A stretch of DNA of 56,831 nucleotides from Deltaproteobacteria bacterium (GTDB lineage: Bacteria > Desulfobacterota > Dissulfuribacteria > Dissulfuribacterales > UBA3076), in the NCBI GenBank assembly GCA_003194485.1, contig PQXD01000010.1, positions 23,571-80,401 on the forward strand. Direction: 5' to 3'. This document shows, piece by piece, positions 2,969-56,831 of the stretch (position 1 is its first letter; each line of letters starts with the position of its first letter). Position numbers and translations under genes: made by a program. The notes under the pieces are model-generated. The model was given only the letters and a program-made list of their open reading frames with translations, ran no database searches and was not told the origin of the DNA.

Positions 2969-3368
2969 GTAAATATTTGGTTGAACCCGTGGTCCACGTA
3001 ACCGTTCACGGGAGGGGATATTTCTTTTTCACTTCACACTTCAGCCCCCTGTTTTCTTAAGGTCTTTGACATGGGGGATGTCCTGCCCCCTCTGCATTCG
3101 CCTTACGCTGCGCTTAAGGCGATGCAGTTTCCCCCACAGCAAAAGCCGAGAAAACTACGGGGGCTTTCCGTTAAACTGCTCAAAGAAATATCCCCTGCCA
3201 GTGAACGGTTGCCATCCGTGCCCTGCCGCAGGAGCGGTTTACCTTTTGCAGGGTTTCGATCGCGGGCCGGATTGCACTGCCTCTCCGGTCTGCGATGGGT
3301 GAGCTTTGAAACCCGGAAAAAGGTAACCGCTTCAAGGCAGGATATAACGGGTTCATAAGAATATTTAC
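2969..3368 (+). mobile_element. Palindromic MITE-like element, copy A (400 bp, composite form)
   Basis: The left end reads gtaaatatttggttgaaccc and the right end is its inverse (gggttcataagaatatttac). Inside the outer element, at 3000-3210, sits a second palindromic module bounded by AACCGTTCACGGGAGGGGAT and a matching inverse ending GTGAACGGTT. The centre of that module is a hairpin (3093-3125) with the loop CGCTGCGCT. It encodes no protein, and short frames through it are spurious. The flanking bases (ttacctgt left, cgtatagg right) do not match, so no target duplication survives. It lies between the divergent hsp20 and ferritin-like genes. Confidence 0.8.
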
Positions 3369-10091: not shown

Positions 10092-10288
10092 GTAAATATT
10101 CGGTGAACCCGTTATATCCTGCCTTGAAGCGGTTTGCCTTTTTTCGGGTTTCAAAGCTTACTCATTGCAGACCGAAAGAGGCAGTGTAATCCGGCCCGCG
10201 GTTGAAACCCTGCAAAAGGCAAACCGCTCCTGCGGCAGGGCACGGATGGCAATTTCCACGGTGGACCACGGGTTCACCGAATATTTAC
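10092..10288 (-). mobile_element. Palindromic MITE-like element, copy B (197 bp)
   Basis: Short form of the family. The ends gtaaatattcggtgaacccg and cgggttcaccgaatatttac are perfect 20-base inverted repeats, and the whole body folds back as a long imperfect hairpin (AGCGGTTTGCC pairs with GGCAAACCGCT). It is flanked by a perfect 8-base direct repeat ATTTTTAA (10084-10091 and 10289-10296), the footprint of transposition. No coding capacity. Confidence 0.9.
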
Positions 10289-32547: not shown

Positions 32548-33176
32548 CCTCGATCAGGAGCAGGATTTTGGACCCGATGGCCCAGGAGCTTCCCGGGTCT
32601 CCCGGCGCGGCGCGCAGGGTACCCCCTCCCTTTCCTGTTGGTGATGCCGATATAGTTTATATTGTATCACGATGCCTTTCTCTATGATAGGCCTTAAGAT
32701 CTTCAAGGCATTCGACGCATTTTTCTGGTTCTTCGCTCCCGTGGCCACTGTGAGAGTTGCCATCCGTGCCCTGCCGCAGGAGCGGTTTGCCTTTTGCAGG
32801 GTTTTGGGTAGCGGGCCGGATTGCACTGTCTCTCCGGTCTGCGATGAGTGAGCTTTGAAACCCGTAAAAAGGTAACCGCTTCAAGGCAGGATATAACGGG
32901 TTCAGCAAGTATTTACAATTGTTAGATAAAAATATCTTTGATTTCAATTGTCCATCAGCTCCAACTTCCTGCCTTAAATTTTGGACGGTATAAAATTATT
33001 TTTTGGAACCAGATGGCTTTAATCGTCCGTAAAAAGCAGGAAAACGGATTTCTAATTCTATAAAAAAGGAGCATAGGTGCGGAATTAATTTATTGACTCT
33101 GTAACGAGAATTGTATAATCAAATTATAGCAAAAAAGGATTCCTTTCCACAGAATCAGGGACCATAGAGGTGAATC
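32548..33176. other. Intergenic region with repeat copy D and a possible gene remnant
   Basis: There is no complete gene. The middle is element copy D. On the minus strand, 32657-32750 reads as a short open stretch ending CVECLEDLKAYHRERHRDTI, whose 5' side runs into copy D. It could be the tail of a gene broken by the element or chance. The final 150 bases should hold the promoter of the two metallo-hydrolase genes. Confidence 0.4.
32751..32917 (+). repeat. Truncated MITE-like element, copy D
   Basis: Matches the right part of the family from gagttgccatccgtgccctg through the end gggttcagcaagtatttac. The left terminal repeat is missing, as in copy C, and both start at the same internal point (gagt-gccatcc), so there may be a recurrent truncated form. 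No target duplication is apparent. Confidence 0.75.
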
Positions 33177-34823: not shown

Positions 34824-34899
34824 TATAAGTTTTATCCAGTTGACTAAAGAGGTATTTTGATCACCTCAATGGGTTCGACAAGGCCACCCAATTTTTTCT

Positions 34900-35294
34900 G
34901 TAAATACTCTTATGAACCCGTTATATCCTGCCTTGAACCGGTTACCTTTTTCCGGGTTTCAAAGCTAATTCGTTGCCCTTACCAGAGGCGGTGCAATCCG
35001 GCCCGCGATCGAAACCCTGCAAAAGGCAAACCGCTCCTGCGGCAGGGCACGGATGGCAACCGTTCACGGGAAGGGGATATTTCTTTGAACAGTTTAACGG
35101 AAGCCCCCGTAGTTTTCTTGGCTTTTGCTGTGGGGAAACCCCGGCTCCTGAGCGCAGCGAAGGAGAACGGGGAGGGGGCAAGACTCCCCCATGTCAAAAG
35201 CCTTAAGAAAACAAGGGGCTGAAGTGTGAAGTGAAAAGAAATATCCCCTTCCAGTGAACGGTTATGTAGGGTCACGGGTTCACCGGATATTTAC
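34900..35294 (-). mobile_element. Palindromic MITE-like element, copy E (395 bp, composite form)
   Basis: The outer ends gtaaatactcttatgaacccg and its inverse (cgggttcaccggatatttac) enclose the same nested module as copy A (35058-35263), in the same relative position and orientation. A perfect 8-base direct repeat TTTTTTCT flanks it (34892-34899 and 35295-35302), so the composite transposed as one unit. It fills most of the gap between the MBL gene and recA. Confidence 0.9.
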
Positions 35295-35452
35295 TTTTTT
35301 CTTGGCTTAAATCTTGCTTAATCAGCCATTTCGGTGATTATGCATGCGGAAATACTTATTGAACTTGATGAGGATGATGGACAGGCGCTGGTAAGTAAGT
35401 TATGATTCGTTTTGGTACTCGATTGCCAGATCATTTTCACCAGGAGGACAGT

Positions 35453-36493: not shown

Positions 36494-36522
36494 TTTCTAT
36501 TGGATGGACTAATGAACAGCTA

Positions 36523-36755
36523 AAAGATGAACATCGAACATCGAACGTCCAACATCGAATGTTGAATGGGGGAAAAGACTTATGATCTGGAAGAAAGGCG
36601 GCTAATTATTGCAGGAGACCGTATATCAGTATACCTCAGCCTTTAACCTAAATGGCTAACATACAAAAATAGCCGTTGAATGTTCGGTATTGGATATTCG
36701 TTTTTCATTCGATGTTGGACGTTCGATGTTCGATGTTGGACGTTCATCTTTTTTT
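36523..36755. repeat. Inverted clusters of ACATCGA/CGTCCA short repeats
   Basis: Between recA and alaS, two clusters of the 7-9 base units aacatcgaac and gtccaacatcgaa face each other: one at about 36528-36570, its reverse complement at about 36698-36750. Translated, the second cluster gives the familiar spurious peptide ERPTSNIERPTSN seen in many environmental genomes. A further degenerate tract (ttcgtgttttcgtaccttcg) follows to about 36800. No gene is present between 36494 and 36851. Confidence 0.7.
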
Positions 36756-40365: not shown

Positions 40366-40935
40366 CTTCGCCTTTCAGGCGAAAGGCTTCAGCAGTTAAG
40401 GGATCGTGGTAAACTTGCTCATGGGAGGTTATCGCCATAAGCAAAGAATATCGCAAGGGGCCTCACACGATCTATGATATCCAGTATCATTTCGTATGGG
40501 TTACGAAATATCGTTATCATGTTTTGAAAGGAGAAGTGGCTTTTAGAACCAGGGAGATAATCCGTCAGACTTGTGAGGCCCGCAATATTACAATTCTTAA
40601 TGGTCATGTTAGCAGGGATCATGTTCATCTGCATGTTTCATGTCCTCCAGAACTTGCTCCGAGCAAGATAGTTCAATATGTGAAAGGACGAAGTTCTCGA
40701 CTGATTCAGCAAGAATTTCCGCATTTGCGTAAGAGATATTGGGGAAGGCATCTTTGGGCTCGCGGCTATTTTTGTGCAACAGTTGGGAATGTTACAGAAA
40801 AAATGATAGCCGCTTATATTGCAAGCCAAGAAAAGGCGAGCCCTAAAGAGGCCTTCACTATTGCTAATGACTAAAGATTGAACCATGTTAGACTTTCAGT
40901 CGTATAAGAAATCTACCTGCTTTCAGCAGGTAGTG
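40366..40935 (+). mobile_element. IS200/IS605-type element inserted in a patatin-like gene
   Basis: About 570 bp carrying one Y1 transposase gene. Each end has a hairpin of the type recognised as single-stranded DNA by HUH transposases: ccttcgcctttcaggcgaaagg at 40365-40386 (imperfect stem) and ctacctgctttcagcaggta at 40913-40933 (perfect 9-bp stem, TTC loop). Removing 40366-40935 rejoins the flanking patatin reading frame exactly. There is no target duplication, as expected for this family. End positions are uncertain by a few bases. Confidence 0.85.
40437..40874 (+). CDS. tnpA: IS200/IS605-family transposase TnpA (Y1, HUH)
   Basis: Tyrosine transposase that cuts and rejoins single-stranded DNA. 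The frame from 40437 encodes about 145 residues, the family length, with the opening SKEYRKGPHTIYDIQYHFVW, the HUH motif in DHVHLHVSC, the GRSSR segment and the catalytic Tyr in MIAAYIASQ. The family start would fall on ATA at 40437, 9 bases after GGGAGG. The first conventional start in frame is TTG 40524, which would drop 29 conserved residues. So either ATA is used or the start has mutated and the gene is dying. Confidence 0.85.
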   Translation: MSKEYRKGPHTIYDIQYHFVWVTKYRYHVLKGEVAFRTREIIRQTCEARNITILNGHVSRDHVHLHVSCPPELAPSKIVQYVKGRSSRLIQQEFPHLRKRYWGRHLWARGYFCATVGNVTEKMIAAYIASQEKASPKEAFTIAND

Positions 40936-49556: not shown

Positions 49557-50405
49557 TTATTGTGATCCGTAACTATGCAGGCCTGAAAGCAGGAAATTCA
49601 CCCCGAAGTATGTAAACATCACTGAGACAAAACCTATTATCGATAAGTAGGCGATCCTGCGTCCGGCCCAGCCCCTGACGAACCTTGCATGCAGTGCCGT
49701 GGCATATACAAACCAGGTTATCAATGACCACGTCTCCTTTGGGTCCCAGCTCCAATACGTACCCCAGGCATCATTGGCCCAAACGGCTCCTGTAATTATG
49801 CCGAGGGTCAACCAGAGAAAACCAAAGATTATTGTCTGGTGCATCAACTCATCAAGGACTTTGCAATCAGGTATAATACCCATGATCCCCGTTGAATCCC
49901 CGCTGGATCTGTTTTTGAAAAGGTACATAATGCCGAGTCCGCAGGCAACAGCAAAAGAGGCGTATCCGAGGAAGCACGTAACGACGTGTGCAATGAGCCA
50001 ATTGCTTTTAAGAGCTGGGATAAGGGGCTGTATTTCATCTTCAATCTCAGGACTAAAGGATGCATAGGCCATGGCAAGGGATGCGAACGGAGTTGCGAAG
50101 GCCCCGATCACACGTCGCTTGACCCGCCATTCCATAACCAGGTAAACCAGGATCGTCATCCACGCAAAAAATACCAGGGACTCATAAAGGTTTGAGAGCG
50201 GGGCATGCCCGTATCCCAATTTGTAAGACTCTACCCATCTGAGGATTATTCCTGTTGTCTGAATGACAAGGCCTCCGGCCGTAACTATTGTAGCCAGTAA
50301 TCCCACCTTCTGTACCCTGAAGATCCAGTGTATCAAATAGAGCGCAGCGGCCCCCAGATATATAAAAGTGGTCAAACTTAAAAAATATGAACTGGAAAAG
50401 GTCAT
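49557..50405 (-). CDS. ccsB: System II cytochrome c assembly protein CcsB/CcsA
   Basis: 282-residue membrane protein with about eight helices. The WWD heme-handling motif appears as WGTYWSWDPKETWSL, and conserved His residues sit in membrane loops (LIAHVVTCFLGYASF, HARFVRGWAG). With ResB it carries heme across the membrane and attaches it to apocytochromes c. Its ATG overlaps the resB stop (TAATG), so translation is coupled. Confidence 0.94.
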   Translation of the reverse strand: MTFSSSYFLSLTTFIYLGAAALYLIHWIFRVQKVGLLATIVTAGGLVIQTTGIILRWVESYKLGYGHAPLSNLYESLVFFAWMTILVYLVMEWRVKRRVIGAFATPFASLAMAYASFSPEIEDEIQPLIPALKSNWLIAHVVTCFLGYASFAVACGLGIMYLFKNRSSGDSTGIMGIIPDCKVLDELMHQTIIFGFLWLTLGIITGAVWANDAWGTYWSWDPKETWSLITWFVYATALHARFVRGWAGRRIAYLSIIGFVSVMFTYFGVNFLLSGLHSYGSQ

Positions 50406-52025: not shown

Positions 52026-52138
52026 CCTCTGTTTTCTCCTAACCGGATAAAGAATTATTGTATAATATATGACAGATCGAAAATTTTATCAAATGTACAG
52101 CCCTGCTCATCCTATGTCAATCAGCCTAATTATTCATT

Positions 52139-52404
52139 ATGGCTATTGAGTTAGCTCCGTTTCGATATATAGTCTTTGATTATTGGGTAATCATCCCTTG
52201 TCCCTCCAATGCTCTCGTCCCTTGTTTTCTGAGACTTTTGCAGCATGGGACCCTCCCTGTTCTCCTCCGCTGCGCTCCGGAGCCAGGGTTTCCCGTACTG
52301 CAAAAGCCAGGAAAACTATGGGACTTCCGCGAGTCGCTCCAAGGGATGATTACCCAATAATCCGTTACAATCAGCATATGATGCGGAGCTAACTCAATAG
52401 TCAT
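52139..52404. mobile_element. Nested palindromic element (266 bp) with 10-bp target duplication
   Basis: The outer ends are ATGGCTATTGAGTTAGCTCC and its near-inverse (one mismatch). Nested inside is a second, perfect 23-bp inverted repeat (52178-52200 with 52340-52362) enclosing the same hairpin core as copies A and E, with the loop CGCTGCGCT at 52268-52276. The whole is flanked by a perfect 10-base direct repeat ATTATTCATT (52129-52138 and 52405-52414). Its termini are unrelated to the GTAAATATTCGG family, so the core has been acquired by two kinds of element. Confidence 0.85.
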
Positions 52405-52450
52405 ATTATTCATTTCCTGCCGGATACAGCGAACGGTTGCGAGCTGGCCT

Positions 52451-53848: not shown

Positions 53849-54052
53849 GTAAATATTCGGTGAAACCGTCCGTGTTCCACTGCGCCTTGGAGTTGCTATC
53901 TGCTCCTTGCCGCAGAAGCGGTTTGCCTTTTGCAGGGTTTCTGGTCGCGGGCCGGATTGCACTGCCTCTCCGGTCTGCAATGAGTGAGCTTTGAAACCCG
54001 GAAAAAGGTAACCGCTTCAAGGCAGGATATAACGGATTTACCGAATATTTAC
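53849..54052 (+). mobile_element. Palindromic MITE-like element, copy F (204 bp)
   Basis: Short form with ends gtaaatattcggtgaaaccg and its near-inverse (ggatttaccgaatatttac). It is flanked by a perfect 8-base direct repeat CCCAACAG (53841-53848 and 54053-54060); including the shared TTAC of its own end, 12 bases match. It lies between the sigma-54 regulator and ppx. Confidence 0.92.
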
Positions 54053-56653: not shown

Positions 56654-56831
56654 GTAAATATTCGGTGAATCCATGGATCACTGGCAGCCGGTCACACAGG
56701 GGAACTCCTTCTTCCAACATGCTCTCGCCCCTTGTTTTCTTAAGGCCTTTGCAGCATGGGAGACCCTCCCCCGTTCTCCTCCGCTGCGCTCCGGAGCCGG
56801 GGGTTTCCCATGCTGCGAAGACCAAGAAAAC
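56654..56831 (+). mobile_element. Palindromic MITE-like element, copy G, cut by window end
   Basis: The left end gtaaatattcggtgaatcca matches the family. Inside it is the shared hairpin core: GCAGCATGGGA (from 56751) pairs perfectly with TCCCATGCTGC, with an inner CCCCCG/CGGGGG stem and the loop CGCTGCGCT at 56782-56790. The right end lies outside the window, so size and target duplication cannot be seen. Confidence 0.75.

Follow-up and report, generated by a model that had tools for sequence, protein, structure and literature searches.

A palindromic hairpin core common to several nested MITEs in a deltaproteobacterial genome, and the paired changes in its stems

Multi-copy, intergenic, imperfect palindromes of about 100–400 bp that form stable stem-loops have been described in bacteria as palindromic repeats or MITEs such as Chunjie, QMITE, RPE and REP (PMC10969869). 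The repeats examined here are of this kind but differ in their layered nesting, in having one core in several unrelated MITEs, and in their 8-bp TSDs. Also close are IS66-family MITEs and IS66 elements with TnpC and DruA; the ends of IS66 begin with GTAA and are accompanied by 8-bp duplications (PMC11946415). The third related system is a process, quasi-palindrome or template-switch mutation, in which clusters of changes make the arms of imperfect inverted repeats match (PMC8794818, PMC8604942). Template switching of this arm-copying kind is established (PMC8794818, PMC8604942), and it creates and maintains paired stems and compensatory clusters (PMC8794818). Similar clusters are found here, but the process is inferred from dispersed MITE copies, including an apparent conversion of an 8-bp direct repeat to an inverted one.

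The window, i.e. the whole stretch of 56,831 nt that was analysed, belongs to an assembly of 2.55 Mb in 87 contigs (97.4 % complete), which was also searched. The host is probably a member of the Thermodesulfobacteriota, in a genus that appears to include a MAG labelled SeepSRB2. An initial annotation had pointed to one hairpin with a fixed loop but different stems in four elements, here called A, E, the 52-kb element and G. These and the related features in the window are as follows.

2969..3368 (+), element A, an outer MITE with an alpha-type palindromic unit; TIR GTAAATATTTGG...AATATTTAC
2998..3212 (+), alpha unit of A, which bears the hairpin core; arms GTAACCGTTCACGGG... and ...CAGTGAACGGTTGC; 45 genome matches (a count that overlaps those of other types, see below)
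3092..3127 (+), tip hairpin of A; CTGCAT-T-CGCCTTA, loop CGCTGCGCT, TAAGGCGATGCAG
10092..10288 (−), empty outer MITE of 197 bp, no core; 8-bp TSD ATTTTTAA
14742..14904 (+), right-hand part of a truncated outer MITE, without core
32754..32916 (+), right-hand part of a truncated outer MITE, without core
34892–34899 and 35295–35302, 8-bp TSD of E, TTTTTTCT
34900..35294 (−), element E, an outer MITE with an alpha unit bearing a beta-type tip
35139..35172 (−), tip hairpin of E; CCCCG-TT-CTCCT, TCGCTGCGCTC, AGGAG-C-CGGGG
52130–52137 and 52406–52413, 8-bp TSD of the 52-kb element, TTATTCAT
52138..52405 (+), 52-kb element, a delta MITE; TIR TATG[A/G]CTATTGAGTTAGCTC
52187..52194 (+), left copy of the 8-bp delta loop, GTAATCAT
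52195..52345 (+), 151-bp core in the loop of the delta palindrome, CCCTTGTCCC...GCTCCAAGGG; tip loop 52268–52276
52346..52353 (+), right copy of the 8-bp delta loop, inverted in the window, ATGATTAC; it lengthens the stem
53849..54052 (+), empty outer MITE of 204 bp, no core; 8-bp TSD CCCAACAG
56654..56831 (+), element G, an outer MITE with a beta-type unit, cut at the window end by an assembly gap (N run)

All four core-bearing elements are intergenic. The neighbours of A are Hsp20 and ferritin-like genes, those of E are a metallo-beta-lactamase-fold gene and recA, and those of the 52-kb element are ResB and a sigma-54 response regulator; G lies downstream of an IMP dehydrogenase gene. No clear TSD was found at the copy A (2969..3368). 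The window also contains a 47-bp inverted repeat pair (36515–36561 and 36706–36752, 85 % complementary, 144 nt apart), which is built of GAACATCGAACRTC-like repeats and is unrelated to the hairpin core.

The four hairpins are real, and their loops, CGCTGCGCT, lie where they had been placed, at 3106–3114 (+), 35151–35159 (−), 52268–52276 (+) and 56782–56790 (+). This sequence occurs six times in the window against 0.19 expected, a number reached in 0 of 100 shuffles, and the remaining two occurrences, at 50341 (−) and 53230 (+), are within coding ORFs and not in hairpin elements. The loop is the same in all four window hairpins, as had been claimed, but it is not invariant genome-wide, with CGCTGCGCT present in 74 of 95 scored tips, CGCTTCGCT in 12 and other variants in nine, of which three represent the same tip with its register off by one step. 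The stems were likewise as reported, with two corrections. Firstly, the tip of G and the 52-kb element is CTCCTC-CGCTGCGCT-CCGGAG and that of E is CTCCTT-CGCTGCGCT-CAGGAG, and CTCCG/CGGAG is a shifted register rather than an in-register base-pair swap; at the homologous stem position E has T-A, most beta copies have T.C, and G and the 52-kb element have C.C. Secondly, the tips of A and E do form a true compensatory set, once the longer stem is aligned (CTGCAT-CGCC/GGCG-ATGCAG versus CCCCG-CTCC/GGAG-CGGGG). The hairpin extends far beyond the tip. Each unit is a long imperfect palindrome in which about 41 Watson–Crick pairs form across about 125 bases, and the tip is its end; the repeat as a whole is about 150–200 bases long.

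This palindromic repeat is present in about 100 copies in the window's own genome. At least 99 distinct core hits were assembled in 279 kb of that genome, and the counts are lower bounds because only these sampled stretches are covered. When the whole assembly was searched, the A-type core gave 45 matches, the 52-kb element 61 and the beta type 72, numbers that overlap one another and include reverse-strand self-matches. The four core types, alpha, beta, gamma and delta, have the inner palindrome in common and differ in their outer arms. The core was found in three contexts: in beta units with IS66-like ends GTAACCGRTCACAGGG, which stand alone or lie inside the outer MITE at GTCCACTG; in alpha units within the outer IS66-type MITE (GTAAATAYYCGGTGAACCCG); and, in a third MITE called delta, as a 151-bp unit within the 8-bp loop. 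Alpha units also form tandem arrays, spaced about 220 bp apart within one outer MITE (in the own genome, G000, on contigs C3:11399-11965, C26:25-395 and C1:132279-132650), and some of these arrays come after a beta unit. The core was found in one family only, in four of 99 relatives and four of 46 genomes of the class, the own genome included. Plasmid and phage collections contained no match to the core, and the exact core pattern run over genome contigs also had none.

Elements A, E and G lie within an outer MITE of 195 bp with the TIR GTAAATAYYCGGTGAACCCG and ends GTAAATATTCGGTGAACCCG. It is short and non-coding with TIRs of about 20 bp, as expected of a MITE, and empty copies are 195–204 bp long, while the filled versions A and E are 395–400 bp. 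In the genome, its TIR pattern was matched 117 times in forward and 134 times in reverse orientation (about 250 ends), while a reversed control gave no match. Flanking repeats of 8 bp are exact at 24 of 55 paired ends and have at most one mismatch at 32 of 55, compared to 0.66 for shuffled pairs, and no signal comparable to that at 8 bp was found for flank repeats of 4–7 or 9–12 bp. Beta units of about 193 bp (GTAACC...GGTTAC) are also flanked by 8-bp duplications when they stand alone (e.g. AAATGATC, on C7), with 6 of 20 having at most one mismatch where 0.5 is expected. No TSD was found around the alpha unit inside the outer MITE. Both the outer MITE and the delta MITE exist in empty and filled versions, and the mobility of this nested system of MITEs is well supported.

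The outer MITE has ends that start with GTAA, and the 8-bp duplications, both as in the IS66 family; however, it shares only the GTAA with the published IS66 consensus, GTAAGCG (PMC11946415). A complete IS66 and DruA insertion sequence with the ends of the outer MITE is present in a sister species of the same genus (genome G003, contig C194 1887-4623). It is 2.74 kb long, has the TIRs GTAAATATTCGGTAAACC and ATAAATATTCGGTGAACC and the ends [G/A]TAAATATTCGGTRAACC, and encodes an IS66 DDE transposase (PF03050, E 2.6e-58) and DruA (PF14236, E 3.2e-46). The outer TIR was found in many bacteria, in 83 stretches, several of them on 2.7-kb elements, and the two 2.7-kb elements examined in other bacteria have genes for an IS66 transposase and for a protein with a DruA domain. 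In the unrelated Elusimicrobia, 136-bp MITEs have the same ends as here, GTAAATAT[C/T]CGGTGAACCC, and perfect 8-bp duplications.

Thus, the outer MITE resembles IS66-family MITEs in its GTAA... TIRs of about 20 bp and its 8-bp duplications, and an IS66-DruA element that shares its ends occurs in the genus. It differs from them in the shared palindromic core, which is unrelated to the insertion sequence, and in that a search of the window's own genome yielded no transposase that matches the outer MITE. As only two fragments of a different IS66 are there, the source element has been lost or is unassembled in this genome; the fragments themselves were rejected as the source as their ends do not match. 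An IS66-type gene in the own genome is split over two contigs (C59 and C34) with an overlapping end, and this contig-end overlap suggests that another repeat interrupts the gene. No autonomous element with beta or delta ends was found, and no cores were found at IS66 loci.

The hairpin had also been suggested to be a single-stranded DNA structure read by a transposase or recombinase, which here would be a Y1/HUH transposase of the IS200/IS605 or REP/REPIN type or an integron-type recombinase. The genome has 13 Y1_Tnp matches, of which ten share one and the same score, and high-copy palindromic repeats do resemble REP elements. One of the ten genes with identical Pfam scores, a Y1 (IS200-type) transposase gene, lies in the window at 40470–40829 (C10:64040-64399). 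However, DDE transposition makes target duplications and HUH/Y1 transposition does not, and the 8-bp TSDs and terminal inverted repeats found here contradict a Y1 mechanism. In addition, no cores were present within the fetched flanks of five Y1 transposase copies, and this reading is hardly credible.

The 52-kb element belongs to a different MITE, delta, with the TIR TATGACTATTGAGTTAGCTC and empty copies of 98–109 bp. The delta ends gave 25 + 25 matches, against none for the control, and among those listed the ends in the own genome are mostly paired at MITE spacing. Duplications of 8 bp lie just outside TATGAC...GTCATA, and the flanks read as TSDs in most copies. The empty 109-bp delta is palindromic at its centre, GATTATTGG-[RTAATCAT]-CCAATAATC, where the loop has 8 bases, and in filled copies the 151-bp core (CCCTTGTCCC...GCTCCAAGGG) lies exactly within this loop. 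In two copies (C3:96623 and C23:16821), the core is between direct copies of ATAATCAT, an exact duplication of the 8-bp loop, which is the pattern expected of an 8-bp target duplication. In seven others (on C10, which is the window, C8, C7:5360, C2, C33, C9 and C1), the core is between GTAATCAT and its perfect inverse, ATGATTAC, and four (C7:25364, C37, C4 and C6) are intermediate between the direct and the inverted loop duplication.

The simplest history would run from direct to inverted repeat: the core would have inserted with an 8-bp duplication of the loop, one loop copy would then have been replaced by the complement of the other via template switching between the arms, and the product would have been amplified through delta transposition. 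The delta pattern points to a DNA-level origin of the pairing. The exact position of the core in the 8-bp loop of the delta palindrome also recalls loop targeting by known elements. Some insertion sequences target palindrome loops, e.g. IS1397 in the palindromic units of E. coli. It is conceivable, if rather doubtful, that the core is itself a mobile unit that enters the loops of existing palindromes, and that template switching then makes the direct duplication into stem. Unlike IS1397, the core is without a known transposase, and there is a single clear insertion event here.

Covariation, which the initial annotation had proposed as a check, was assessed on 32 non-redundant units, which include units from three other genomes, using a structure of 34 pairs. 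Paired cells made up 92.5 % compared to 84.2 % in shuffles, double changes were found in 15 of the 34 pairs compared to 10.5 in shuffles, and the covariation score was 0.243 against 0.107 for shuffled and no more than 0.062 for slid controls. A summed helix-level score, added as a second look at the same data after the first tree-null run gave no significant single pair, was 188.7, whereas the tree null had a mean of 3.9 (sd 16.5; the maximum of 200 nulls was 54.6). The structure-wide covariation thus exceeds by about 11 sd a null in which the tree and the substitutions on each branch are retained, though this null is a home-made R-scape-type procedure that assumes a tree, which is violated by recombination between copies. 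Of the pairs taken singly, one passed the family-wise threshold of the tree null with the 32 sequences, and with 80 sequences no pair did so. About 15 double changes were counted on the tree, versus about 61 branch changes with an unpaired state. Hence, the paired change is real in aggregate and is carried by a few old subfamily events.

These last figures could be taken to mean that the repeat is purely neutral and that its paired change only mirrors a few old subfamilies with no arm-matching process, as double changes are far outnumbered by changes with an unpaired state and single pairs are mostly not significant. This seems quite improbable, as the structure-wide excess was obtained against a null that retains the tree, and arm pairs are matched across subfamilies and species.

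The same covariation could instead reflect an RNA, either non-coding and structured or a regulatory element, that the MITEs have spread and whose stems are kept by selection on the transcript. The double changes, the proportion of paired cells (far above the slid controls) and the summed score are all in its favour, as are DNA fold z-scores of −4.1 for E and the 52-kb element and −8.0 for one beta copy (A, −1.9). However, no preference for G-U over A-C was seen on either strand, with Watson–Crick pairs changing to G-U or to A-C in 13 versus 24, 11 versus 18 and 20 versus 27 events on the tree (p 0.10, 0.26 and 0.38). The raw count of cells, 50 A-C and 16 G-U, was set aside since cells are not independent and the tree-counted events were not significant. 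At two hypervariable positions in the alpha arms, the arms match in 6 of 31 copies against 4.6 expected, i.e. they vary independently, and mosaic copies that fuse the left and right halves of different subfamilies, with pairing lost (e.g. C1:132279 and C5:73421), persist. Rfam gave no matches over the window, the core is absent from most relatives in the class, and almost no single pair exceeded the family-wise null. An RNA is therefore an unlikely explanation. For the same reasons (no G-U preference, independently varying arm positions and mosaics that break the pairing), and because the same 8 bases are paired arms in some copies and a direct duplication in others, the rule that paired change with a fixed loop marks a selected structure is not supported here.

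What stands is that one hairpin core is common to otherwise unrelated elements, with paired change that is statistically real, and that this core is a mobile DNA element. We consider it likely that the hairpin is the palindromic core of non-coding MITEs moved in trans, with arms matched mainly at the DNA level. The hairpin is common to these elements because one palindromic core sits in several MITEs. Transposases of autonomous elements would move the MITEs in trans, the core would hitch-hike on their transposition, and template switching or gene conversion, acting between arms as well as between copies, would keep the arms complementary mainly at the DNA level. If the arms are homogenised in this way, paired changes arise even if the hairpin has no function of its own. 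Transposition together with template-switch homogenisation is therefore, by inference, the favoured origin of the paired stem changes; selection on the hairpin may also contribute, given a summed covariation far above the tree null.

Dispersed palindromic MITEs of this type are a trap for covariation-based discovery of RNAs, as they can give strong structure-wide covariation without any sign of an RNA. If the core does insert into loops, repeated rounds would produce nested hairpins with one tip on many stems, and compensatory change would be a by-product of mobility. The delta copies appear to capture the passage from a direct target duplication to a perfectly paired stem, and through them DNA-level homogenisation of arms in bacterial palindromes becomes testable. 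For the organism itself, the finding reveals a heavy MITE load, as one family contributes about 250 ends to its 2.5-Mb genome.
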